From: a virus
DNA length: 23,585 nt
IMG/VR virus record: IMGVR_UViG_3300034092_002928
Span: 1-23,585 of that record
Direction: 5' to 3' (one strand)
The notes under the pieces are model-generated. The model ran no database searches and was not told where the DNA came from. It worked only from the letters and a program-made list of their open reading frames with translations. Numbering within the stretch: position 1 is the stretch's first letter; every line of letters begins with the position of its first letter. Shown piece after piece: positions 1,667 through 23,585 of this stretch. The position numbers and the translations under genes are program-made.

Positions 1667-1871
1667 AGATTGGATAAACCAAGAGCGTGTTAAGAAAATT
1701 ATGATTAGTAATCATGAACCAACTGATTTTTATTTTGAAGATGGTAAAGTAGTTATGACTGAGTCATACCATATTAAGAGAGGTAGTTGTTGCGGGAATG
1801 GATGTAAAAATTGTCCTTATTCTCCAATTCACAAAAAAGGAAACACTACTATATTTATAGACAATGGCTAA
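1650..1871 (+). CDS. Small DUF5522-like cysteine-motif protein
   Basis: A 73-residue protein with the signature RGSCCGNGCKNCPY (residues 45-57), preceded by an FYFEDGKVVMTESYH segment; together these match my memory of DUF5522, a short family common in Bacteroidota. The four cysteines (47, 48, 52, 55) could bind a metal or an Fe-S cluster, but no function is established to my knowledge. The ATG at 1650 is chosen; a TTG one codon upstream is possible. The start lies inside the 3' end of the GIY-YIG gene (17-base overlap), and its 3' end overlaps the gp25-like gene by 8 bases, so it is probably translated together with them. It is longer at the N-terminus than the core motif and looks complete. 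A virion role is possible from position alone; a host-derived accessory gene is equally likely. Confidence 0.72.
   Translation: MIKNTEDWINQERVKKIMISNHEPTDFYFEDGKVVMTESYHIKRGSCCGNGCKNCPYSPIHKKGNTTIFIDNG
1852..1859 (+). promoter_or_regulatory. TATTTATA motif just before the gp25-like start
   Basis: TATTTATA followed by GACA and the ATG at 1864. The arrangement closely matches that before the HNH gene (TATTTATA, GAAT, ATG at 13211). Here it also encodes the C-terminus of the DUF5522-like protein. It may be a promoter element, or part of an SD-less A/T-rich ribosome entry site. Confidence 0.22.
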
Positions 1872-2334
1872 TGGTGTTACATATGGTATAAATTTTCCCT
1901 TCAGAGATTCACGAAGAGGTGACTATTTGGAGTTAACTGAATTTCAGTCTCAAGAAATTAAGGCGGCTTTGATACATTTGTTATTAACCAGAAGAGGATC
2001 AAGATATTTTTTACCAGAATTTGGTACTAGATTATATGAATTTTTATTTGAACCATTTGACGGATTAACATTTAACGCAATTGAATCTGACATTAGGGAT
2101 GCAATTGAAAACTTTATGCCAAATCTATTGGTTAATAGTTTAAGTATTACTCCTGCAGACCCACAAGAAGAGGTGGATATTGCGACAGGACAAAACTTGA
2201 TTGGGACCAGTGAATCATCAATATATAGATTTCCGGGTAAGGGTACTTCAGAATACACAGCAAAAATAAGAATAGATTACTCAACTAATGGGGCGACATT
2301 TGGTCAGAGTGATTTTGTAATTATCAATATTTAA
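1864..2334 (+). CDS. Baseplate wedge protein, T4 gp25-like
   Basis: A 156-residue protein of the gp25/IraD-like family. The N-terminal GINFPF, the central helix (LTEFQSQEIKAALIHLLLT), the RRGSRYFLPEFGTRLYEFLFEP segment at residues 43-64 and the following amphipathic helix match the family; the usual Glu-Pro pair of the core is at 63-64, but Phe follows where Arg is common. T4 gp25 has 132 residues. In T4 the protein sits at the inner ring of the contractile baseplate, joining wedges to the hub and the sheath start. It overlaps the upstream gene by 8 bases and is followed after 5 bases by the gp6-like gene, the usual pairing in contractile phages. No Shine-Dalgarno sequence is present before the ATG. 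Confidence 0.9.
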   Translation: MANGVTYGINFPFRDSRRGDYLELTEFQSQEIKAALIHLLLTRRGSRYFLPEFGTRLYEFLFEPFDGLTFNAIESDIRDAIENFMPNLLVNSLSITPADPQEEVDIATGQNLIGTSESSIYRFPGKGTSEYTAKIRIDYSTNGATFGQSDFVIINI

Positions 2335-2339
2335 ATAAG

Positions 2340-4178
2340 ATGGCGAATAACAGAATATCATATACTAGTAGAGATTATCAGTCAATAAGAACGGAACTTT
2401 TAAATTACGCAAAAACTTACTATCCTGATTTAATTCAAGATTTTAATGACGCCTCAGTGTTTACTGTTTTCCTTGATTTAAATGCTGCGGTTGCGGATAA
2501 CTTGCATTATAATATTGATAGAAGTATTCAAGAAACCGTTTTACAGTATGCTCAACAAAGGTCTTCAATTTACAACATTGCAAGAACATACGGGTTAAAA
2601 TTACCAGGTCAAAGACCATCAGTATCATTAGTTGATTTCTCAATTACGGTTCCTGCCTTTGGTGATAAAGAAGATGAAAGATATCTTGGAACTTTATCAA
2701 GAGGTTCTCAAGTTGTTGGAGCTGGTATTGTATTTGAAAATGTTTATGATGTTGATTTTGCGTCACCGTACAACGCTCAAGGATTTCCAAACAGATTAAA
2801 AATTCCAAACTTTAACGCTAATAACATATTAATTAATTATACAATTACAAAAAGAGAACTTGTTGTTAATGGTATCACTAAAGTGTTTAAAAGAGTAATT
2901 GGGGCAAATGATGTTAAACCATTTTTTGAATTATTTTTACCCGAAAAAAACGTCTTAGGTGTTACAAGTGTGTTATTAAAAAATGGAACTAGCTATACCA
3001 ACGTACCAACAACAGCGGAATTTTTAGGTTTAGATAATAGATGGTATGAGGTGGATGCTTTGGCTGAAGACAGAGTGTTTGTTGAAGACCCTACAAAAGT
3101 GTCTGACCAACCTGGTATTAAAGTTGGTAGGTACATTCAAACACAAGATAGATTTATTACTGAATACACACCCGAAGGATTCAAAAAGATGACATTTGGT
3201 GGGGGTACAAATACCGCTCAAGACCAATTAAACCAATTTACAACATTAGGTGCCACATTAGATTTACAAAGATATAGTAATAACCTTTCGTTAGGTGCAA
3301 CACTAACACCAAATTCAACTTTATTTATTCAATATAGAGTTGGTGGAGGTTTGGCAACAAACTTAGGAACAAATGTAATTAACTCTATTGGTACCGTATC
3401 ATTCTTTGTAAATGGTCCTTCCGAAACTACAAACTCATCGGTGGTTAATTCACTGAGGTGTGTTAACGTAACCGCAGCTGTTGGCGGAGCAGGTATACCA
3501 TCACTTGAAGAGATTCGAAACTATGTTTCATTTAACTTTGCAGCACAAAAAAGAGCGGTAACAGTTCAAGATTATGAATCATTAATTAGAAACATGCCAG
3601 CCCAATTTGGTGCACCTGCAAAAGTATCTATCACGGAAAATGATAATAAAATATTAATTCAAATATTGTCATATGATACTTCAGGTAAATTAACCAATAT
3701 TGTTTCAAACACATTAAGACAAAATATTGCGAATTATTTATCAAACTATAGGATGATGAATGATTATATTTCTATCTTTAGTGCAGAAGTAATTGATTTA
3801 AGTATGGACATTTCAATTGTTTTAGATTCCGCACAAAATTCAGGTCAAGTAATTTCAAGTGTCGTTGATAAACTATCGGCGTACTTTAATCCTCAAACAA
3901 GACAATTAGGACAAAATGTTTATTTATCTGAAGTTAGGAGTTTAATTCAAAATACTAATGGAGTATTAACAGTTGCTAATATTGATGTTTTCAATGAAGT
4001 TGGAGGACAATATTCTTCAGCTGAAACTTCTATGGTTTATGCAAACGAAGAAACAAAATTAATATTACCAGTTGACGACACAATATTTGCACAACCATCA
4101 CAGGTTTATCAAATCAGATACCCAAATAGAGACATTAGAGTTTCGGTTAAAAACTTCCAATCAGTAACTTTTTCATAA
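2340..4178 (+). CDS. Baseplate wedge protein, T4 gp6 / P2 gpJ-like
   Basis: A 612-residue protein, close to T4 gp6 (660). The N-terminus has the family pattern of a DYxSIRxELL helix, a DASVFTVFLDLNAAVADNL stretch and an ALxY-type dimer region (residues about 12-85). The C-terminal half carries the baseplate-J-like signature: a small Gly-rich turn, SLEEIRNYV, then RAVTVQDYESLI at about 405-416. In T4 two gp6 copies with one gp7 form the ring-forming wedge heterotrimer. The gene follows the gp25-like gene directly, supporting the call, and a gp7-like partner lies about 10 kb downstream. The TATTTAAATAAG before the ATG has no Shine-Dalgarno core. Confidence 0.9.
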   Translation: MANNRISYTSRDYQSIRTELLNYAKTYYPDLIQDFNDASVFTVFLDLNAAVADNLHYNIDRSIQETVLQYAQQRSSIYNIARTYGLKLPGQRPSVSLVDFSITVPAFGDKEDERYLGTLSRGSQVVGAGIVFENVYDVDFASPYNAQGFPNRLKIPNFNANNILINYTITKRELVVNGITKVFKRVIGANDVKPFFELFLPEKNVLGVTSVLLKNGTSYTNVPTTAEFLGLDNRWYEVDALAEDRVFVEDPTKVSDQPGIKVGRYIQTQDRFITEYTPEGFKKMTFGGGTNTAQDQLNQFTTLGATLDLQRYSNNLSLGATLTPNSTLFIQYRVGGGLATNLGTNVINSIGTVSFFVNGPSETTNSSVVNSLRCVNVTAAVGGAGIPSLEEIRNYVSFNFAAQKRAVTVQDYESLIRNMPAQFGAPAKVSITENDNKILIQILSYDTSGKLTNIVSNTLRQNIANYLSNYRMMNDYISIFSAEVIDLSMDISIVLDSAQNSGQVISSVVDKLSAYFNPQTRQLGQNVYLSEVRSLIQNTNGVLTVANIDVFNEVGGQYSSAETSMVYANEETKLILPVDDTIFAQPSQVYQIRYPNRDIRVSVKNFQSVTFS

Positions 4179-13210: not shown

Positions 13211-13855
13211 ATGGAAATGAAAGTTTGTAAGAAATGTTTAATTGAAAAACCGTTAAATGAGTTTTACATTAAAAGAACAGAATGTATTGTATGCGCTAAA
13301 GAATATCGCAAACTATCATATAAAAAAAACCCTGATAGACAAAAAGAACGAAGTAAGTTAAGAAACTTAAATGACCCTAACTATGCCAAGAATTATCAAA
13401 AAAATAATAGAGAAAAAGTAAATAATACTGCTAAAAAATGGAGGGATGAAAACCCTGATAAATCTGTAGAGTGTGTTCTTAGATGGAGAAGTAATCATAA
13501 AAAAAAATACAATCAATACCAAAAATTATATCGAACCAATAATGATTTAGTTAAATTAAGTTCTAATATTAGGAATAGAATTAATAAATATTTAAAAATT
13601 AATAGAGTAAGTAAAAAAAATACAACTTTTGAAATTGTTGGGTGTTCTCCACAATTCCTTAAGGGATATTTAGAAAACCAATTTGTTGATGGTATGACTT
13701 GGGAGAATAGGGGTGAATGGCATATTGACCACATAATCCCATTATCTTCTACAAAAACAGAAGAGGAATTTTACAAATTGTGTCATTATACAAATCTTCA
13801 ACCACTATGGGCGGAAGAAAATATGAAAAAAAGTAATAAACTAATTTTAAACTAA
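13211..13855 (+). CDS. HNH homing-type endonuclease
   Basis: A 214-residue nuclease. The N-terminus holds a zinc-ribbon-like pair, C6-x2-C9 and C25-x2-C28 (VCKKC … CIVCAKEYRK), followed by a long basic helical region (residues about 30-135) that probably contacts DNA. The HNH core is at 170-210: EWHIDHIIPLS with D173 and H174, then NLQPLW (N195) and NMKKSNK (N204, K210). The key residues appear intact. It stands alone between structural genes and looks like a mobile endonuclease rather than a packaging HNH protein, because no terminase genes are nearby. An ATG at 13217 is an alternative start. It contributes nothing obvious to the virion, and the flanking genes would be close neighbours without it. 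Confidence 0.9.
   Translation: MEMKVCKKCLIEKPLNEFYIKRTECIVCAKEYRKLSYKKNPDRQKERSKLRNLNDPNYAKNYQKNNREKVNNTAKKWRDENPDKSVECVLRWRSNHKKKYNQYQKLYRTNNDLVKLSSNIRNRINKYLKINRVSKKNTTFEIVGCSPQFLKGYLENQFVDGMTWENRGEWHIDHIIPLSSTKTEEEFYKLCHYTNLQPLWAEENMKKSNKLILN
13826..13840 (+). repeat. 15-base direct repeat, right copy, in the HNH gene 3' end
   Basis: AAAAAAAGTAATAAA, identical to 13183-13197. Here it codes for part of the KKSNK end of the HNH motif, so it may be constrained by protein sequence rather than being an insertion scar. Confidence 0.45.
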
Positions 13856-13862
13856 AAAAAAT

Positions 13863-14771
13863 ATGGCGATCGGTTCGTACGGTACTATAAGGCCGAGTGA
13901 TGTCTCACCTGAAGATGTCCAAATCATACTCAATTATACACCATCAAGAGATGTTACAGATAACTTTATCTTAACAGAACTTGACGCACAAACATTATTA
14001 AAACCATATTTCAATAATACGGAGACAGGCGGAAACGCAAATGTTGAGGTTTTAGGTGGATTATATAACTTAACATTACCTGCAGAACAATTTAATGCGC
14101 TTGGGATTTACACTTTATACTTAAGACCTGCTCAAATTAGAACCAGAATTACAGATTGTGGTGTATTAAGTGCATTACCAAACGTTAAGGGTATCATCAT
14201 TGATATTTCAAACGTACCAGTACAATTTCAAAATAAATTTGTACCACAAGGATTGGTTGGATTTAGAATTGAATATTTAAATGCCGACGGGTCAAAAATA
14301 CCTAATTTCTTTAGAGTTGTTACTTCATCATTCTTCTGTGAACCAGTTGTTACGAATGAAATTAATACAACCCAAAAATCTATAAGATATAGATATGTTG
14401 ATGGTAGTTCAAATTTAATATTTTTAACACTATCACCATCATCATCACCAACAAACAAGCCAAATGCAACACCGTTTATTGGCCAACCAAACCAAAATAT
14501 CATAATTAGTAATACTTTTTTTAATCCTGTTACATTAGAGGTTGAGATGGTTGAGTATGATATTTCGTCTCTTGCAATTGCTCTTTACGGTAATCAAACC
14601 AAATCTATTGATGACGGTATCTATACAATTTACGATTCTGAAAATAACATTTACAGACAATACAACTTGTATGAAATTAGAGACCAATTTAACGCATTAC
14701 TTTATGAGGTTAGACAAAGTAGAGGAAATAATATTGATTTTAGTAAAAACTTTACAACAATAACAACTTAA
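13863..14771 (+). CDS. Uncharacterised structural protein upstream of the gp7-like gene
   Basis: A 302-residue protein with no family I can name. The sequence is mostly beta-type, with a Ser/Pro/Thr-rich low-complexity stretch at about residues 196-208 (LSPSSSPTNKPNATP), a likely flexible linker between an N-terminal domain and a C-terminal part. The end has a helical YNLYEIRDQFNALLYEVRQS segment, possibly for docking onto another wedge protein. No signal peptide or membrane helix is seen. It starts 7 bases after the HNH stop and its own stop overlaps the gp7-like start by one base (TAATG), so it is probably co-translated with the gp7-like protein. A baseplate wedge role is inferred from that coupling. 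Confidence 0.72.
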   Translation: MAIGSYGTIRPSDVSPEDVQIILNYTPSRDVTDNFILTELDAQTLLKPYFNNTETGGNANVEVLGGLYNLTLPAEQFNALGIYTLYLRPAQIRTRITDCGVLSALPNVKGIIIDISNVPVQFQNKFVPQGLVGFRIEYLNADGSKIPNFFRVVTSSFFCEPVVTNEINTTQKSIRYRYVDGSSNLIFLTLSPSSSPTNKPNATPFIGQPNQNIIISNTFFNPVTLEVEMVEYDISSLAIALYGNQTKSIDDGIYTIYDSENNIYRQYNLYEIRDQFNALLYEVRQSRGNNIDFSKNFTTITT

Positions 14772-17755
14772 TGGCGGTAGAAACTAAAAATACTAAATTT
14801 TTTTATCCCCCTAGACCAGGTAGTGGTGCGGGTACCTTCTCTGACAACATTGTAGGATTACAAACTGTTGAGGGAGGAGGACTTACGCAAGGTAACTTTG
14901 AGTTTACTACGGGTGTAACAGAAAAGGTTAATAGAACCTTTAATGTTGGGGCTTTCTCTGAACCAATGTCTTTGGACATGATGGGTATTGAAAATTTAGA
15001 GGAAAGCAGAAGAATTATGGCAACCCAATTTAGGGTTTATCCAAATTACGACATTTCTCAAGTTTTAAATTTTTCAATGTATGGTTCATTGTCTAAAAGA
15101 TTTAGTGTGTCTATCACAAAAATCATTAATTATTTTCCTGCATCATTAGATGTGGAGTTTAATAATGATGATTATACGACGGGTAATACTGCTTATGACA
15201 TCGCATACGACCTTCAAAATGATGAAACATATTTTAAAGTAAACGTTTCTCGAATTAACAACCCGTTTGATATTGATTATTCGATTAGTGCTGCCACTAA
15301 CCTATCAATTAGAGAATTAGAAGTATCTCCCTATAGAAACTTATATAACACTTATTTAGATTATTGTGTTAGTATTAATGACAATATTTTTAACCTACTT
15401 GCGTTTGTTCCGTCAGAAACTTTATCCTCAGGGTATATAGAATTTTTTGTGTCAGGGGATCCTTTTGGTACTACAGCAACCACTAGCAATGATGACTTTC
15501 AAATTAGACCAAACGATTTTATTGTCGATAAAGTTTTTCAAGAAACATTTGATGAGGTTGAAAAGTTTTTAGTTAATAGATTGGTGAGACCAGAATATAC
15601 TGCGGTATTTCAAGTACCGCAACAAAATGAATTTGGCCAAACATACACAGAATATAAACAAGTTACTTGGCCAAAACAAGGTCCTTGGAATTTAGACATT
15701 CGTTCATTTTTGTTTGACAGATATCTTGAAGAAATTCAATCAATTGCAGTTAACTTAGATTCGTTCAAAACTAATTTAATTTCAAGATTTTTAATTACGG
15801 ATTCGTTAAAAGAGTTTGACACTTTAGGACAAAAAGTTGAAAAAATATTTCAAATTTATGGTAGAAGTTTTGACCAAATAAAACAATTTATTGATGGGTT
15901 GGCGTATATGAATTCGGTTAATTATAACCCTTCAAATGATATACCTTCTGAGTTGTTAGTTAATTTATCAAGAACGTTGGGATGGTCGTCAAATTTTTCA
16001 CCAATCACCAACGAAGACTTCTTAAGTTCAGTATTCGGTAATACATCAACTCCGACATATCCAGGATATGCCAGAGCTCTTACACCGACTGAATTAAACT
16101 ATGCTTATTATAGAAATTTAATTCTTAACGCTTCATACCTTTTTAAATCAAAAGGAACTAGAAGGTCTGTTGAATTTTTATTGAGATTAGTTGGAGCACC
16201 TGATTCGTTAATAGAATACAACGAATACATTTATTTGGCGGACCAAAGAATTAATCTTGACCAATTTGATACTCAATGGGCTAGTATTTCTGGCGGAACA
16301 TATGTTAATGATGTTCCCGCGTATTTACCGAGTGAAACATTTAAAATTAAGGGACAATTATATACCGCATTTACATCAACTGCAACATATGAAGATGTTA
16401 GTATTAATTTAACGGATTATCCAATTGACGCTGAAGGTTATCCTAAAGCACCTGCAAATACGGAAACGTTCTTTTTTCAAATTGGTTCTGGTTGGTATGA
16501 AACAACACCACAACATAGAAGTCCTGATCAAGTGCAAATCACAGGAAATGTCTTTACAGGTCAAAATTTTAATATTCAGACTCAATTAACACCTTTCACT
16601 TATGGTCAAACTTATCTTAACAGATATAGAGATTTTCCATATATGAATGAAGGGTTTAAATTACAAAAAGTTGTTGATAATAATAAATCTTGGTTATCTG
16701 ATGATGATAGAATTAGAGTTTCAACCCAAGGGGATTACAATGCCTATTATTTTGTGGATAATGAGAAATTGGTATTAAACGTTAAGAATGTTGATATATT
16801 TTTAAATCCAGCTCAGGGTATCGTATATGATGTTTGGAATCAATCGGTTCAATATGATTATCCAATTCCTGAATCAGGTTTAACTGTTGGTTATCCTGTT
16901 CCTGGTGGGGTTGATTGGACTTACATTAATCCTGAACCAAAGAAAAAAACATTCTTTGAATTTTCTCAAACTTTTTGGGAGAACATGATTAACACAAGAA
17001 ACAGACAATATATTACAGATGGTAAAACAGGTGGATATCCGACATTACAATCAATATTTTGGAAATACATTGAATCTGAACAAACTGTTGGGTTACCAAA
17101 CAACAAATATACTTACCAAAAATTAATTGATTATGTTGATGGTATTGGTCCTTATTGGACTAAGTTAGTTGAACAAATGGTTCCTGCAACAACAATTTGG
17201 AATGGAGGGGTTAGATTAGAAAACTCAATCTTTAATAAACAAAAGTTTGTTTATAGAAGACAAAGAGGATGTCAATTTATTCCAGTCCCTGTTGACCCAT
17301 GTTTTATTATCTCAAATATATTTGATTATACATGTAATACCGAATATGCGGATTTTAACGTTTATCCATGGTTTAATGGAGATGTTACGGTATCAAACTT
17401 TAGTAGTATTTTAGGTAATAGAATTAATAATATGTTATCTCAAAGTGGATTAACGCTTAATCAATGTTATGAAAATTCAGTATTAACAGATTGGTTTGTT
17501 GATTTAACAATCAATAACGAAGAAATAATTAAAGAGTCCTTTTATACTGGTTACGGTATTACTGATGTACCAACTAACACACAATGGAGAAATGCTTTAA
17601 TAAATTATTTACCTCAATTATATAATTATGGGTATACATATTACTTAAATGGTAATACATTAACAATAACAAATTTAACGTGTTTAACTCAGAATATAGT
17701 GGATACTGTTTCGTTAAACGTTGGAATAAACATTAGTATTAACTGTACAGAATAA
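14771..17755 (+). CDS. Baseplate wedge protein, T4 gp7-like with P2 gpI-like core
   Basis: A 994-residue protein, close to T4 gp7 (1,032). The best evidence is the segment at residues about 445-490: YYRNLILNASYLFKSKGT, then RRSVEFLLRLVGAP and a following IEYNEY. The 'K-S-K-G-T, then helix, then G-A-P' pattern is typical of tail protein I of contractile phages, whose counterpart in T4 is a gp7 domain. Upstream helices (about 315-400, FDRYLEEIQ…, FQIYGRSFDQIKQFIDGL) fit the wedge core bundle. In T4 one gp7 and two gp6 make each wedge heterotrimer. The N-terminal third and the C-terminus are not recognised. It shares one-base overlaps with both neighbours. The gpI-like part is fairly secure; equating the whole protein with gp7 is inference from length and partner genes. 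Confidence 0.75.
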   Translation: MAVETKNTKFFYPPRPGSGAGTFSDNIVGLQTVEGGGLTQGNFEFTTGVTEKVNRTFNVGAFSEPMSLDMMGIENLEESRRIMATQFRVYPNYDISQVLNFSMYGSLSKRFSVSITKIINYFPASLDVEFNNDDYTTGNTAYDIAYDLQNDETYFKVNVSRINNPFDIDYSISAATNLSIRELEVSPYRNLYNTYLDYCVSINDNIFNLLAFVPSETLSSGYIEFFVSGDPFGTTATTSNDDFQIRPNDFIVDKVFQETFDEVEKFLVNRLVRPEYTAVFQVPQQNEFGQTYTEYKQVTWPKQGPWNLDIRSFLFDRYLEEIQSIAVNLDSFKTNLISRFLITDSLKEFDTLGQKVEKIFQIYGRSFDQIKQFIDGLAYMNSVNYNPSNDIPSELLVNLSRTLGWSSNFSPITNEDFLSSVFGNTSTPTYPGYARALTPTELNYAYYRNLILNASYLFKSKGTRRSVEFLLRLVGAPDSLIEYNEYIYLADQRINLDQFDTQWASISGGTYVNDVPAYLPSETFKIKGQLYTAFTSTATYEDVSINLTDYPIDAEGYPKAPANTETFFFQIGSGWYETTPQHRSPDQVQITGNVFTGQNFNIQTQLTPFTYGQTYLNRYRDFPYMNEGFKLQKVVDNNKSWLSDDDRIRVSTQGDYNAYYFVDNEKLVLNVKNVDIFLNPAQGIVYDVWNQSVQYDYPIPESGLTVGYPVPGGVDWTYINPEPKKKTFFEFSQTFWENMINTRNRQYITDGKTGGYPTLQSIFWKYIESEQTVGLPNNKYTYQKLIDYVDGIGPYWTKLVEQMVPATTIWNGGVRLENSIFNKQKFVYRRQRGCQFIPVPVDPCFIISNIFDYTCNTEYADFNVYPWFNGDVTVSNFSSILGNRINNMLSQSGLTLNQCYENSVLTDWFVDLTINNEEIIKESFYTGYGITDVPTNTQWRNALINYLPQLYNYGYTYYLNGNTLTITNLTCLTQNIVDTVSLNVGINISINCTE

Positions 17756-19899
17756 TGGCGGCATATGAATATAATATATCAATAACAGGGGATTGTCAAA
17801 ATACAAATTCTGGCGCAATTTATTTGACTTTAACTGGTGGTACTCCACCATATACGGTTGAATGGGTTGACCCAAATTTAGGTGCCGATGTTGTCATAGA
17901 TATGATACCATCAATTAGAACATCATTAAGTGCTGATACATATGCGGTCAGAGTTAATGACAGTACGCTACCGACTAACCAAGAATTTTATATTAATATA
18001 CCTGTATCGTCAGGTGTTTGTGCAACTATACTTGGAGTACAAGGGACAACATGTTCTTTAAATAACGGTTCGGTAACTGGAAGTTCTTCTTCAGATTATT
18101 CTAGTACTAATTTTTATTTATATACTTCTAACGACATATATATAACGTCGGCAATTACAAGTGTAAATCAAGTTATTTTTGGCACTTTGAGTGCGGGAAC
18201 CTACTACATGGAAGTGGTTGATTTAGGTGGATGTACAGGGTATAGCCAAAATTTTATAGTTGAGGATTCAGATACTTTGGATTTTGGTTTATATGCGGTA
18301 CCAAATTCTAGTTGTGGTGGAGTACCTATAGGTAAAATTACAATAACAGGAGTGACAGGTACGCCACCATATACATATAATTGGTCTACAAGTGCAACTG
18401 GAACAACTGTAACGGGGTTAACTTCGGGTACTTATTCTGTTTCGGTCACAGATTCATATGGGTGTGTTACCACAAAAAGTGCAACAATTGTTGATGTTAA
18501 TCCTGTTGGATTAGGTTCTTTTACTGCAATACAACCAAGTTGTTTTGCTGCTGATGGTTCTTTTACAATACAAATTACTGGAGGAACTGCACCTTATTAT
18601 TATTCCGCGTCAACTGGAAGTGTTCAAATTCAATATGGTACTTCTTTTACTGTTTCAGGTTTATCTCCTGGAGACTACTCAGTTCAAGTGACTGATGCCG
18701 CGTTATGTTCATTTGTTGCAGGAACTGTATTAACGTCACCACAAGGGATTACCTCAGTTAACATTAATTCTGTGGGTTCAACTTGTTCTAGCGACGGTGG
18801 TTCAATACAAATTTCAGTTTTTGGTGGAACAACACCATACATTTACACCTTAATATATCCTAACGGTAACACAACAAATGTCACCAACACTTTAACCACT
18901 CAAATATTTTCAAATTTAGCTAGTGGAACGTATAGTGTTGCAGTACAAGATGCCGCGGGGTGTTCGTATATAGATGAAATTACTTTATTTGCAACAAACA
19001 CATATACAATCTCAACCGAAGTTACAAGTACAACTTGTAATCAAGACAATGGTTCAATCTTAGTTACAAGAACTGAAGGTGGGGCAGCACCTTATGATTA
19101 TTCTTTGGATGGTATTCAAAATGTAATTGATACTACACTATCTGCAGTTACGTTTACAAACGTTGCTTCAGGGCAACATACAATAACGGTTACAGATGCT
19201 ACAGGATGTACACAAACAACTCAAGTGTATGTTAATGAAAGTGTGCCATTAGATTTTACGTTATATAGTACTTCTTGTGGCGAAGGTTCTGATGGAACAT
19301 TAACGGCTTTAATCTCAACTGGCACACCACCATTTACGTTTGATTGGTCAAGTAATGTTCAAACTAATCCACAACAAATTCAAGTTACAGGGTTAACTGC
19401 TGGTACATACAGTTTAACTGTTGTTGATAGTATTGGTTGTTCTTTAACTAGAAGTACATTAATTGATTGTCAAGGTCTTTATGTTTCATACCAAACTTAT
19501 GTTATGGGTGGTGAACAGTTCAACATCCAATCACAAACAAAGTACGGTTTACTTCAAATGTTAAATGAAGGTTTTGATGATTTGACTAACGATAAAGTTA
19601 GTTGTGATTTATTATCTGCGGTATTTGGTGTTAAAGTTTCTGTTAATCCAATGGGGTTAACAACCAATCAAAACTTTTTTACAGGAACAACTTTGGTTAA
19701 CGCTCCAAGTGACAATCTTTATTATGATACGGTTAAAAATTTATTATTAACAATTCCTGGTGTTGGTGGTGTAACTATTGATGCATTTAATAATCAAATA
19801 ACAGTTAGTACTGACCCAAATAATACAACATTAAACGGGCAAGAAATTGTGGTTGAATTAACTATAGTTTACGATATTATGTGTTTGTCGTGTGATTAA
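17755..19899 (+). CDS. SprB-repeat virion protein, probable host-contact adhesin
   Basis: A 714-residue protein built of about seven tandem 75-85-residue repeats (residues about 5-570). Each has the SprB-repeat outline: a Cys near the start, a G-S/G-T strand, a GGTxPYxY or GTPPYTYNW turn, a GLxxGTYSVxVTD strand, then GC. The third repeat (TGTPPYTYNWS … GTYSVSVTDSYGC) and the seventh (TGTPPFTFDWS … GTYSLTVVDSIGC) are the clearest; the first two are degenerate. Such repeats are known from SprB, the gliding adhesin of Flavobacterium, and other secreted Bacteroidota proteins. Residues about 575-714 form a distinct C-terminal domain ending CLSCD. There is no signal peptide or T9SS-type C-terminal signal that I can see, which fits a virion component. 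The start overlaps the gp7-like stop by one base. Binding to the host surface is inferred. Confidence 0.82.
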   Translation: MAAYEYNISITGDCQNTNSGAIYLTLTGGTPPYTVEWVDPNLGADVVIDMIPSIRTSLSADTYAVRVNDSTLPTNQEFYINIPVSSGVCATILGVQGTTCSLNNGSVTGSSSSDYSSTNFYLYTSNDIYITSAITSVNQVIFGTLSAGTYYMEVVDLGGCTGYSQNFIVEDSDTLDFGLYAVPNSSCGGVPIGKITITGVTGTPPYTYNWSTSATGTTVTGLTSGTYSVSVTDSYGCVTTKSATIVDVNPVGLGSFTAIQPSCFAADGSFTIQITGGTAPYYYSASTGSVQIQYGTSFTVSGLSPGDYSVQVTDAALCSFVAGTVLTSPQGITSVNINSVGSTCSSDGGSIQISVFGGTTPYIYTLIYPNGNTTNVTNTLTTQIFSNLASGTYSVAVQDAAGCSYIDEITLFATNTYTISTEVTSTTCNQDNGSILVTRTEGGAAPYDYSLDGIQNVIDTTLSAVTFTNVASGQHTITVTDATGCTQTTQVYVNESVPLDFTLYSTSCGEGSDGTLTALISTGTPPFTFDWSSNVQTNPQQIQVTGLTAGTYSLTVVDSIGCSLTRSTLIDCQGLYVSYQTYVMGGEQFNIQSQTKYGLLQMLNEGFDDLTNDKVSCDLLSAVFGVKVSVNPMGLTTNQNFFTGTTLVNAPSDNLYYDTVKNLLLTIPGVGGVTIDAFNNQITVSTDPNNTTLNGQEIVVELTIVYDIMCLSCD

Positions 19900-19909
19900 A
19901 ATATAAGAA

Positions 19910-20248
19910 ATGGTACAAATAAGAATAACAGAAATATCAGGTGGAACTTACCCAATCAATGTCTTTCTTGCGGATGTTTATGGTAACAATCAAACTTTTC
20001 TTGGGACGATAGATCCAGGACCAGTTCCTCCCGCACAAAAATATAATTCAACTATTCCTTCAATTTTTGAAACCGCACCAGAGGTTATGTTATTGTTAGT
20101 AGATGATAATAATTGTAGTGTCTTTAAAATTCTTGATTGTACATTTGGTTGTGCCTTTGAAATAACCATTGAAATGGCGTCTTGTATTGTAGATATGACT
20201 ATACAAGAATCTAACTGTATTTTTAACATAATCTCAACCGAAATATAA
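19910..20248 (+). CDS. Small Cys-rich protein of the fibre region
   Basis: A 112-residue protein of unknown function, 10 bases after the SprB-repeat gene. The N-terminal part is beta-type and contains TYPINVFLADV (residues 13-23), which resembles GPFNVYLDDV in the next gene's product, suggesting a shared small module. The C-terminal 45 residues hold five cysteines (NNCSV, LDCTFGC, ASCIV, SNCIF) in beta-type surroundings. No signal peptide or membrane helix is seen. Its place between two adhesin-like genes suggests a small tail-fibre or attachment protein, which is context only. Confidence 0.65.
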   Translation: MVQIRITEISGGTYPINVFLADVYGNNQTFLGTIDPGPVPPAQKYNSTIPSIFETAPEVMLLLVDDNNCSVFKILDCTFGCAFEITIEMASCIVDMTIQESNCIFNIISTEI

Positions 20249-20318: not shown

Positions 20319-21320
20319 ATGACTACATACACTATTCTTGTTACTAATATTGCAGCAGGTTGTAATAATGAAATTGAACAACAACTTACATTAAGCGCCT
20401 GTACTTCATATATAGTAAGACTTACGTCTAACTCAAATGCTTTAGGGCCATTTAACGTTTATCTTGATGACGTAATATATTATTCAGCACAAACAAGAAC
20501 AGAAATGTTAAATGGTGTTGTGGTGAATATACAATGTGAAACACCAACACCTACACCAACACCAACGATTACTCCGACAAATCAAACTCCAACACCAACT
20601 CCGTCAAGTGTTACGCCAACTCCAACACCAACAAATACTGAAACACCAACTAACACACCAACAAGTACATTAACTCCAACACCAACATTAACTCCAACAC
20701 CAACCAATGTTCCATTTAGGGCTTACATATTTCCAGAACCACAAGACAGTACATCTCAATTTGATATAGGTACTTTTACATCTGGTTTAGGTGGTAATTT
20801 TAATGGATTTAGTAATAATATTGGACCTGCGGGTGGTGCAACATATGCTGCTGACATGGCAATATACGCTCAATATCCAGGATGGAGCGGTTCAAGTGGT
20901 AACTTTATTACAAATGTTTCATTAATATCTAATGCAATTAGACAAGACTCAGGAACAGGCACTGATTCTCAAGGATGTCCCCAAAATCAATATACATTTG
21001 GTAGTATTGGGGTAACAACATCTACAGTTAATCCTTCAGTTCAGTATGTGTATACAGTTTGGGTTCCATTAACGGGTGTTGGTGGTACATTTAATAATAT
21101 GACGTTAGATGTTGGTACAGGTGCCGCTTGTTCAACATCAATTATTAACAATGGTATTCCTGATTCTGGAAATGCGGCAATAAATGTCGTGGTACCAAGT
21201 GGTTGTGCAATTCCTTCAGGAACTTACAGAATTTTATGGATGAATGAACTTTATTATGTACCTAATACATTACCATTAGGTACGACACTTTGGATTAAAG
21301 GAGATACAAAAACACCTTAA
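20319..21320 (+). CDS. Tail-fibre or adhesin-type protein with Pro-Thr linker
   Basis: A 333-residue protein in three parts. Residues 1-73 form a small beta-type domain with GPFNVYLDDV, similar to the previous protein. Residues 75-129 are a low-complexity Thr-Pro linker (TPTPTPT units with occasional Asn, Ser, Glu and Leu), expected to be an extended, rigid spacer. Residues about 130-333 are a Gly/Ser/Thr-rich domain with three cysteines (GCPQNQ, AACSTS, SGCAIP) and a WMNELYYVPNTLPLG segment near the end; it looks like a globular binding domain but matches no family I recognise. Domain-linker-domain layout and position favour a tail appendage. No signal peptide is seen. The start lacks a Shine-Dalgarno sequence. 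Confidence 0.75.
   Translation: MTTYTILVTNIAAGCNNEIEQQLTLSACTSYIVRLTSNSNALGPFNVYLDDVIYYSAQTRTEMLNGVVVNIQCETPTPTPTPTITPTNQTPTPTPSSVTPTPTPTNTETPTNTPTSTLTPTPTLTPTPTNVPFRAYIFPEPQDSTSQFDIGTFTSGLGGNFNGFSNNIGPAGGATYAADMAIYAQYPGWSGSSGNFITNVSLISNAIRQDSGTGTDSQGCPQNQYTFGSIGVTTSTVNPSVQYVYTVWVPLTGVGGTFNNMTLDVGTGAACSTSIINNGIPDSGNAAINVVVPSGCAIPSGTYRILWMNELYYVPNTLPLGTTLWIKGDTKTP
20541..20705 (+). repeat. Thr-Pro codon repeat (extended linker)
   Basis: About 55 codons, mostly ACA/ACT alternating with CCA, encode TPTPTP-type sequence interrupted by NQ, SSV, NTE and STL. Codon third positions vary (CCA, CCT, CCG; ACA, ACT, ACG), so the protein repeat is better kept than the DNA repeat. Confidence 0.85.
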
Positions 21321-21349: not shown

Positions 21350-23585
21350 ATGTCATTTGAATATAAAAATCCTTTATCGCCAGCACAATTAGGTGGAACA
21401 CAAAGTGTTGCTAGAACTGTCCCATTTGGAACTAATTTTTCGGTATTAAATGTAGGGGGTTACATGGAGGTTTATTATTTAAGAGACCTTGAATTAATTC
21501 TTACCGCTACAACATACCCATCACAAATTCAATTATCCGCTAATACAATACCAATTAACTTTACTAAAGGTACTGGTTCGGTATTTTCACCTGATGGTAT
21601 AAGTTTAAATTCGGACAACATTTCTACAGGTAGGAGAAGATTGGGTATGCAAGTTTATGTTCAAGAAACCGATACCGTTTATCAATACACAATACCTAAT
21701 TATGAATTTTTGTGGAATTCATTGTCAGGACTTACAGGTAATTCAGCAAAAACTCAAACAGAATATTCAACTACGGTTAATAATCGTTCTCAAGCGGGTA
21801 GAGATTTCATTAACGCTTGGACTGGTTCGACAATTGAAGGGTATAATGATACAAGAGAAAATGCTCGATGGAGAATATTTTATGGTACAGATACTCAAAT
21901 TACAGGTGGAACTTATTATTCTGGGACATCTCAATTAGATTTATTTAATAATACTGGTGGTACAATAACAATTACAGGTTTAACCGCACCAATTACAGGT
22001 GGAACTTATGATGGTGGTAACCAAACTTTAACTCTAACCAATTCTCTTGGTGAGGATATTCAAGTAACTGGATTTACATCAGGTGGAGGAGGTAGTCCTC
22101 TTAGTGTTGGAGATGGTACAACAACTGTTGCCAATGTCACAGGTATGACATTTTCAGGTGCTTCAGTTATTGATAATGGAAACGGAAATGTAATTATTGA
22201 ATTTACGGGTGGAACGGGAACATCAGGAACTAGTGGTACTTCAGGTTTAAGTGGAGTTGATGGTACATCAGGTTCATCAGGAACTAGCGGTACGGATGGA
22301 ACTAGCGGTTCTTCAGGAACTTCAGGATCAAGTGGTACGGATGGAACTAGCGGTTCTTCAGGTACTTCAGGTTCTTCAGGAACAGATGGTACATCAGGTT
22401 CAAGCGGTATAGATGGAACTAGTGGAAGCTCAGGTACAGATGGTTCTTCAGGAACTTCAGGATCAAGTGGTATAGATGGTACAAGTGGTTCTTCAGGAAC
22501 AGATGGTACTTCAGGTTCAAGCGGAACAGATGGAACTAGCGGTTCTTCAGGAACTTCAGGTTCAAGCGGTACGGATGGAACTAGCGGTTCTTCAGGAACT
22601 TCAGGTTCTTCAGGAACAGATGGTACATCAGGTTCAAGCGGTATAGATGGAACTAGTGGAAGCTCAGGTACAGATGGTTCTTCAGGAACTTCAGGATCAA
22701 GTGGTATAGATGGTACAAGTGGTTCTTCAGGAACAGATGGTACTTCAGGTTCAAGCGGAACAGATGGAACTAGCGGTTCTTCAGGAACTTCAGGTTCAAG
22801 CGGAACAGATGGTACATCAGGTTCAAGCGGTATAGATGGAACTAGCGGTTCTTCAGGAACTTCAGGGTTATCTGGTGTTGACGGAACTAGTGGTAGCTCA
22901 GGAACAGATGGTACTTCAGGTTCAAGTGGTATAGATGGTACAAGTGGTTCTTCAGGAACTTCAGGTTCAAGTGGTATAGATGGTACAAGTGGTTCTTCAG
23001 GAACTTCAGGTTCAAGCGGAACAGATGGAACTAGCGGTTCTTCAGGAACTTCAGGTTCAAGTGGAACAGATGGAACTAGCGGTTCTTCAGGAACAGATGG
23101 AACTTCAGGTTCAAGTGGTATAGATGGAACTTCAGGTTCAAGCGGTATAGATGGAACTTCAGGTTCAAGCGGTATAGATGGAACTAGCGGTTCTTCAGGA
23201 ACTTCAGGTTCAAGCGGAACAGATGGAACTTCAGGTTCAAGCGGTATAGATGGAACTTCAGGTTCAAGCGGAACAGATGGTACATCAGGTTCAAGTGGTA
23301 TAGATGGTACATCAGGTTCTTCAGGAACTTCAGGTTCAAGTGGAACAGATGGAACTAGCGGTTCTTCAGGAACTTCAGGTTCAAGTGGAACAGATGGAAC
23401 TAGCGGTTCTTCAGGAACTTCAGGTTCAAGCGGTATAGATGGAACTAGCGGTTCTTCAGGAACTTCAGGTTCAAGCGGAACAGATGGTACATCAGGTTCT
23501 TCAGGAACTTCAGGTTCAAGTGGAACAGATGGAACTAGCGGTTCTTCAGGAACTTCAGGTTCAAGTGGAACAGATGGAACTAGCG
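21350..23585 (+). CDS. Collagen-like fibre protein, 3' end beyond the window
   Basis: An ATG at 21350 opens a frame with no stop before the window end, giving 745 complete codons; the gene is incomplete. Residues 1-180 (MSFEYKNPLSPAQLGG …) are an unrecognised beta-type region with WNSLSGLTG and RWRIFYGTD segments. Residues about 184-244 hold two copies of a 30-residue beta repeat starting ITGGTY and ending ITGLTAP or VTGFTS, a pattern common in phage fibres. From residue 290 (base 22217) to the end, every third residue is Gly: 152 triplets, almost all GTS, GSS, GTD or GID, with rare GLS and GVD and no proline. It probably forms a long shaft carrying a C-terminal tip domain outside the window. 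Trimerisation like collagen is inferred. The start has AAAATATAGAAT before it and no Shine-Dalgarno sequence. Confidence 0.88.
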   Translation, partial: MSFEYKNPLSPAQLGGTQSVARTVPFGTNFSVLNVGGYMEVYYLRDLELILTATTYPSQIQLSANTIPINFTKGTGSVFSPDGISLNSDNISTGRRRLGMQVYVQETDTVYQYTIPNYEFLWNSLSGLTGNSAKTQTEYSTTVNNRSQAGRDFINAWTGSTIEGYNDTRENARWRIFYGTDTQITGGTYYSGTSQLDLFNNTGGTITITGLTAPITGGTYDGGNQTLTLTNSLGEDIQVTGFTSGGGGSPLSVGDGTTTVANVTGMTFSGASVIDNGNGNVIIEFTGGTGTSGTSGTSGLSGVDGTSGSSGTSGTDGTSGSSGTSGSSGTDGTSGSSGTSGSSGTDGTSGSSGIDGTSGSSGTDGSSGTSGSSGIDGTSGSSGTDGTSGSSGTDGTSGSSGTSGSSGTDGTSGSSGTSGSSGTDGTSGSSGIDGTSGSSGTDGSSGTSGSSGIDGTSGSSGTDGTSGSSGTDGTSGSSGTSGSSGTDGTSGSSGIDGTSGSSGTSGLSGVDGTSGSSGTDGTSGSSGIDGTSGSSGTSGSSGIDGTSGSSGTSGSSGTDGTSGSSGTSGSSGTDGTSGSSGTDGTSGSSGIDGTSGSSGIDGTSGSSGIDGTSGSSGTSGSSGTDGTSGSSGIDGTSGSSGTDGTSGSSGIDGTSGSSGTSGSSGTDGTSGSSGTSGSSGTDGTSGSSGTSGSSGIDGTSGSSGTSGSSGTDGTSGSSGTSGSSGTDGTSGSSGTSGSSGTDGTS
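21899..22081 (+). repeat. Two ITGGTY beta repeats in the fibre protein
   Basis: Copy one (21899-21991) encodes ITGGTYYSG…LDLFNNTGG…ITGLTAP and copy two (21992-22081) ITGGTYDGG…LTLTNSLGE…VTGFTS. They are adjacent and in frame. They probably fold as a short beta shaft between the N-terminal attachment region and the Gly-X-Y repeat. Confidence 0.7.
22217..23585 (+). repeat. Gly-X-Y coding repeat, 152 triplets and continuing
   Basis: Nine-base periodicity holds without any loss of register to the window end. Position X is Thr or Ser, with Ile, Leu or Val in some triplets; position Y is Ser or Asp. The most common larger unit is 45 bases (GSS-GTS-GSS-GTD/GID-GTS), mixed with 27-base units. The same residues use alternating codons (for GSS: ggttcttca, ggttcaagc, ggttcaagt, ggatcaagt, ggaagctca). 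Confidence 0.92.
22334..22801 (+). repeat. 234-base tandem duplication inside the Gly-X-Y region
   Basis: Bases 22334-22567 and 22568-22801 are identical by eye except one synonymous change (ggtact versus ggaact). 234 bases is 78 codons, or 26 whole triplets, so frame and triplet register are kept. It includes the distinctive ggaagctca and ggatcaagt codon variants in the same order in both copies, which marks a copy event rather than simple repeat similarity. Confidence 0.85.

Follow-up and report, generated by a model that had tools for sequence, protein, structure and literature searches.

A seven-repeat SprB-family protein in a phage tail gene cluster: a probable host-contact arm with a docking-like C-terminal domain

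The tail gene cluster and the SprB-repeat gene

The window analysed (23,585 nucleotides) is the whole of IMG/VR record IMGVR_UViG_3300034092_002928, which is complete at 23,585 bases and represents a virus fragment without a host genome. The gene order begins with gp25-like and gp6/Baseplate_J proteins and five proteins of unknown family; a 994-aa protein and the SprB-repeat protein come next, and then three products of 112 aa, 333 aa and collagen-like type. The SprB repeats sit in a tail/baseplate gene cluster marked by gp25 and gp6, and the phage structural setting given in the original prediction was borne out. The principal genes are as follows.

1864..2334, + strand: gp25-like baseplate wedge protein (PHROG 261, E 1.1e-18)
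2340..4178, + strand: gp6-like/Baseplate_J wedge protein (PF04865, 31 bits; PHROG 6, E 1.4e-23)
14771..17755, + strand: 994-aa baseplate-type protein at the gp7 position (lies with gp25/gp6; similar by profile to same-position phage proteins)
17755..19899, + strand: gene for the 714-aa SprB-repeat protein (overlaps the upstream gene by one base)
19910..20248, + strand: 112-aa adaptor-like protein, downstream of the SprB gene (its homologue in locus L081 bears a PT stalk and a propeller-like tip)
20319..21320, + strand: 333-aa candidate fibre protein, PT-rich in its stalk and with a tip at the C-terminus (read from the sequence)
21350..23584, + strand: collagen-like fibre protein, running off the window end (PF01391, 218.8 bits)

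The collagen-like gene (21350-23584) is highly repetitive, being built of GTSGSSGTDG units; the repeat also gives rise, as a by-product, to an ORF of 507 aa on the other strand (22060-23583). Profile comparison gave a weak link between the 333-aa and 112-aa proteins, from a shallow alignment. Endonuclease-type ORFs were observed beside and inside the tail cluster, namely a GIY-YIG endonuclease gene at 920-1666 (PF01541, 50 bits) and an endonuclease-like ORF at 13211-13855, which is HNH-like by eye and has no Pfam match. Positions 2-832 probably encode the C-terminal part of a ribonucleotide reductase truncated where the window begins (a reading of the sequence, again with no Pfam match). An Rfam search of the window returned no RNA family, and no diversity-generating retroelement was seen in it.

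The junction between the 994-aa gene and the SprB gene reads TAATG, with one base common to the upstream stop codon TAA (17753-17755) and the ATG (17755-17757); both the ORF and the junction are exactly as the original prediction had them, in which the gene directly followed a gp7-like gene with a one-base overlap. That prediction had also proposed an HMM search against PF13573 as a check, with matches only to unrelated Ig-like families counting against it. PF13573 (SprB) proved to be the best Pfam family of the 714-aa protein (E 3e-24; 84.8 bits, the cut-off being 28), matching in six stretches, and the matches are therefore not confined to Ig-like families without relation to SprB. A six-frame search of the window located PF13573 at six places, all within ORF 17755-19899, while the same search of 14 control genomes gave no match. 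The best PHROG matches were to Hoc-like and virion structural families (phrog_2973, E 1.6e-17), a similarity which probably reflects generic Ig-like likeness. The gene is under purifying selection, with a dN/dS of about 0.08 for the reading frame (an approximate value, synonymous sites being near saturation).

In an AlphaFold (AF2) model built on 65 orthologues (mean pLDDT 84.3, pTM 0.36), seven beta-sandwiches are followed by a disordered linker and then, at the C-terminus, by an alpha/beta domain that stands apart (residues 595-714). As the low pTM leaves the mutual arrangement of the units unpredicted, the term "arm" is used here on the basis of domain order and not of modelled shape. The parts of the protein are listed below, together with the related domain of the upstream protein.

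17423..17752, + strand: C-terminal domain of the gp7-position protein, common to the SprB protein (hhalign)
17755..18018, + strand: repeat unit 1 (aa 1-88), Ig-like beta-sandwich (PF13573 match at 17794; AF2)
18019..18276, + strand: repeat unit 2 (aa 89-174), degenerate SprB unit (hhalign to units 5/6; AF2 strands)
18277..18507, + strand: repeat unit 3 (aa 175-251) (PF13573)
18508..18747, + strand: repeat unit 4 (aa 252-331) (PF13573 over cut-off)
18748..18996, + strand: repeat unit 5 (aa 332-414) (PF13573; AF2)
18997..19242, + strand: repeat unit 6 (aa 415-496) (PF13573 over cut-off)
19243..19470, + strand: repeat unit 7 (aa 497-572) (PF13573)
19471..19536, + strand: disordered linker (about aa 573-594) (pLDDT <50 at 575-594)
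19537..19896, + strand: C-terminal alpha/beta domain (aa 595-714) of the SprB protein (hhalign, hmmsearch, AF2)

Unit 2 (aa 89-174) fell below the PF13573 threshold and was grouped with the other units by profile comparison (D2 versus D5/D6, hhalign probability 97%). The predicted count of about seven repeats is thus made up of six found by PF13573 and a seventh given by profile comparison and AF2. Among the orthologues, unit 3 was the most conserved (mean pairwise identity 0.52), the linker was of near-constant length (24-27 aa), and each unit retained at least one cysteine in at least 97% of sequences. Five units carry conserved cysteine pairs (100/160, 187/237, 263/318, 344/403 and 428/485), between which disulphides are possible.

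The C-terminal domain, the upstream protein and exchangeable tips

The C-terminal domains of the SprB protein and of the 994-aa protein upstream are paralogous. Comparison of the two by hhalign gave a probability of 96.4% (E 1e-9, 106 columns), compared to at most 2.8% for 30 column-shuffled alignments; a shallow alignment had given 42%, and the relationship was clear only with 49 and 65 diverse sequences. The homology was also found by hmmsearch, and the element order H-E-E-H-E-E-E was observed in both AF2 models, that of the upstream protein being confident in its C-domain part and of low confidence in much of the remainder. Paralogy with the gp7-position protein suggests a docking or assembly role for the C-terminal domain of the SprB protein.

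The "gp7-like" label of the upstream protein is one of position. It is in keeping with the place of the gene and with profile resemblance to the same-position proteins of Microcystis phage Mel-JY01 (probability 93%) and Flavobacterium phage immuto (73%), but the protein had no Pfam or PHROG match, hhalign against T4 gp7 gave a probability of 0.2%, and a fold search was uninformative, its AF2 model being mostly of low confidence. None of these comparisons identified the protein as gp7, and the "baseplate" assignment rests on the neighbouring genes.

Relatives were chosen by the upstream protein alone in two scans. Among the matches listed, more than 550 stretches encoded relatives of the upstream gene, and 160 metagenomic loci were taken from the matches listed. 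The SprB family was found directly downstream in all 156 loci which continue beyond the upstream gene (in one of these, L217, the SprB gene is split into two ORFs, and several are cut by the contig end), the other 4 of the 160 ending within about 150 bases of it. These loci are redundant metagenomic contigs, and 65 orthologues were left at 85% identity. The length of the core was 708-746 aa even though pairwise identity drops to 34%, and large variable extensions were present at the C-terminus only. A PF13573 search of immuto, Mel-JY01 and the 484-kb LR756508.1 gave no match, so the SprB protein marks this phage group and not all relatives.

At the C-terminal end, 31 of the 65 orthologues (the window protein among them) stop at the C-domain and have no tip, 9 have short tails and 25 have longer extensions, mostly attached via a PT-rich stalk. 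Pfam families in some of the tips were DUF285, CBM_4_9, Fib_succ_major (FISUMP), LRR_4 and PKD, and others appeared propeller-like when the sequence was read by eye. The tip of the SprB protein in L248 is 75% identical to the L081 tip borne by the 112-aa-protein homologue, while the SprB cores of L248 and L081 are only 43% identical; the occurrence of similar tips on different proteins, in loci whose SprB cores have diverged, indicates that tips move between carriers. Such movement is typical of receptor-binding modules. The arrangement expected of a receptor-binding fibre, a conserved part followed by a variable exchangeable tip, was found in the relatives and not in the window protein itself, and the position of variable tips after the conserved C-domain in some relatives suggests that it is often the tips, and not the SprB repeats, that determine the receptor.

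Further SprB-repeat proteins were noted in these loci. A second downstream protein of about 439-814 aa with two SprB repeats was present in L208, L210-L212, L216, L223, L234, L239, L275, L280 and others. In addition, two close relatives (L291:5389-7878 and L293:5711-8200) encode an 829-aa PT-stalk protein with two SprB-type repeats, the gene for which lies in another fibre cluster beside several relatives of the 112-aa and 333-aa proteins.

Comparison with host adhesins and known proteins

A subset of the repeats was compared with those of other phages and with a host set consisting of repeats from 79 GTDB loci. Each repeat matched the same-position repeat of other phages best (110-119 bits), compared to 34-56 bits for other positions and host repeats (34-52 bits for host repeats), and the best host repeats examined were about 35-45% identical to the phage repeats. 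The GTDB scan for host or prophage matches returned what look like cellular adhesins, the best of which match mainly the repeat region (23-35% identity), with most matches ending by about residue 610. In contrast, repeats within the secreted adhesin of LR756502 are up to 80% alike. This position-specific orthology indicates that the array is old and was fixed before the phage group diversified. A recent copy from a host was ruled out, as same-position phage repeats match far better than the repeats of this host set, and the suggestion that the phage uses the host's own module by copying it was not supported. In this comparison with host repeats, of the kind proposed at the outset, the phage repeats proved highly diverged from those of hosts.

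The T9SS/gliding adhesins of Bacteroidota belong to the same PF13573 family and share Ig-like beta-sandwich units, mostly with a conserved Cys pair; the phage protein differs from them in its fixed seven units, tail-operon position, phage-specific C-domain and lack of a signal peptide or T9SS CTD. No N-terminal hydrophobic segment was found in the 65 orthologues (hydropathy, maximum KD 1.85), compared to a KD of 2.34 for a genuine secreted phage adhesin. Likewise, the T9SS sorting domains TIGR04131/TIGR04183 (NCBIfam) gave no match over cut-off in the window protein or in two tip-bearing orthologues, while the positive controls, the LR756502 and G004 adhesins, were both matched; a Por_Secre_tail (Pfam) match of 14.9 bits (cut-off 27) lies inside repeat 7. 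Hydropathy across the 65 orthologues and NCBIfam thus agree with the earlier reading that the lack of a signal peptide or T9SS signal argues against a secreted surface protein, and identity as a secreted adhesin was ruled out for the window protein.

Two phages were observed to encode SprB proteins of the secreted kind. LR756502.1 (a 642-kb phage) encodes a 1670-aa protein (L117:10786-15798) with a signal-peptide-like N-terminus, at least 12 SprB repeats and, for sorting by the T9SS, a type B domain (TIGR04131, 50.1 bits). A candidate secreted adhesin is also encoded on the phage contig G004 (203,171 bases), namely an 1855-aa SprB-repeat protein (L292:5925-11492) in which an N-terminal hydrophobic segment and a type A sorting domain of the T9SS (TIGR04183, 34.7 bits) were found. 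G004 also encodes a virion-type SprB protein, and the virion-type and secreted-type proteins are thus separate genes. No paper on phage-encoded T9SS adhesins was found in the literature searches made.

A full-length structural match of 714 aa (34% identity) was obtained to UniProt A0A6J5LD72 in BFVD, from an uncultured Caudovirales phage, which is very likely of the same family and was already annotated automatically. As that entry bears the name "SprB repeat", the family is not unseen, only undescribed in the literature searched, where no function, context or C-domain description of A0A6J5LD72 was found. A literature search for "SprB repeat" with "phage" gave a single match, concerning polymorphic toxins, and virion proteomics of Flavobacterium phage immuto was not found in the literature.

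A single-sequence search of solved structures gave nothing significant. The nearest solved structure by profile (E 4.9e-8) and fold was the grappling hook protein GhpA of Aureispira (PDB 9flp and others), the likeness being in tandem Ig-like domains; GhpA itself is cellular, 5898 aa in length and not a virion part. The profile search also matched the decoration proteins 5lxk and 8zvi and the putative neck-whiskers protein gp24 (9occ). Tentaclins, candidate receptor-binding proteins of phages, begin with a C-lectin, continue with 1-4 Ig domains and are anchored by an Ig domain at the C-terminus (PMC10743442); the combination of a binding domain, tandem Ig-like domains and an anchoring end is similar, but the SprB protein has seven SprB units, no C-lectin and a non-Ig C-domain, with tips (in relatives) at the C-terminus. 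Ig-like domain proteins of gut phages are described as virion adhesins which bind epithelium (PMC13370021); the likeness is that of phage-encoded Ig-like domain proteins and the difference is the binding of gut epithelium.

Probable role of the SprB protein

Taken with the gene context, these data make it reasonably probable that the SprB protein is a tail host-contact component with a seven-domain arm and a docking-like domain, in a large phage of myovirus type which probably infects Bacteroidota. A fixed-length arm would be formed by the seven SprB-family Ig-like domains, followed by a short flexible linker and the alpha/beta domain. From its paralogy, the latter may attach the arm to the baseplate, either next to the gp7-position protein or on it, and many relatives carry a P/T stalk and an exchangeable, putatively receptor-binding tip after this domain. 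The window arm is tipless, and binding heads may be carried by the 112-aa, 333-aa and collagen-like products of the adjoining genes. Presence in the virion, docking and receptor binding by the tips are all presumed in this scheme, and the arm might instead point the other way, its N-terminal end being proximal and its C-domain and tip lying at the distal end.

The phage is presumed to be of freshwater origin. Shine-Dalgarno motifs preceded 2.5% of ORFs, compared to 4.3% after shuffling and 33% for the locus of a cyanophage. Their absence is expected for Bacteroidota, and a frequency at or below chance supports such a host without proving it.

It is unlikely, though worth weighing, that the protein is a head or neck decoration (Hoc-, T5 pb10- or whisker-like) merely sited in the tail operon. 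Ig-like arrays are common on phage heads, which favours this reading, as do the Hoc-like PHROG matches and the profile matches to 9occ, 5lxk and 8zvi. Tandem Ig-like domains and the PHROG 2973 match are indeed common to the SprB protein and the Hoc/Ig-like decoration proteins; the former is set apart from the Hoc type by its tail-operon position, its baseplate-paralogue C-domain and the exchangeable C-terminal tips of relatives. Where a Hoc protein has a capsid-binding domain, the SprB C-domain instead resembles a neighbouring tail-cluster protein, the gp7-position protein of which it is a paralogue and to whose gene it is invariably linked, and the exchangeable tips are common to neighbouring fibre-type proteins.

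It is improbable that the SprB repeats act by mimicry, binding the polysaccharides of host SprB or attaching the virion to the moving adhesin track. The repeat family is that of host gliding and T9SS adhesins, the host is probably of Bacteroidota given the absence of Shine-Dalgarno motifs, and phage resistance in Flavobacterium columnare goes with loss of gliding (PMC7345892), the phage receptors in that species being regarded as likely components of its motility machinery (PMC7345892). However, the repeats are highly diverged from those of hosts and conserved position by position in the manner of a scaffold, the variable domains of binding type are instead found beyond the array, no report of ligand binding by SprB repeats was found in the literature searched, and the host is not known to glide. 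A related proposal, that the SprB-type arm engages the host gliding/adhesin system and that virions exploit adhesin movement to reach an entry site, either through association with moving SprB filaments or through common glycan ligands, is considered very unlikely. Display of the protein on the infected host, as a lysogenic-conversion or secreted adhesin, is the least credible reading; although LR756502.1 and the 203-kb G004 do encode SprB adhesins with a signal peptide and a T9SS sorting domain, the window protein and its orthologues lack the hydrophobic segment, no sorting domain exceeded the cut-off, the gene is locked in a tail operon, and the G004 phage has both kinds as separate genes.

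The tail host-contact reading describes an architecture which is widespread in uncultured large phages, in which a seven-domain adhesin-type arm and a docking-like paralogous domain are combined with swapped tips. The virion-type arm is thereby set apart from the true secreted SprB adhesins of other phages. Confirmation would point to the part of these phages that informs on host range, and would mean that a Bacteroidota adhesin fold entered a phage tail in the distant past and there became a scaffold.
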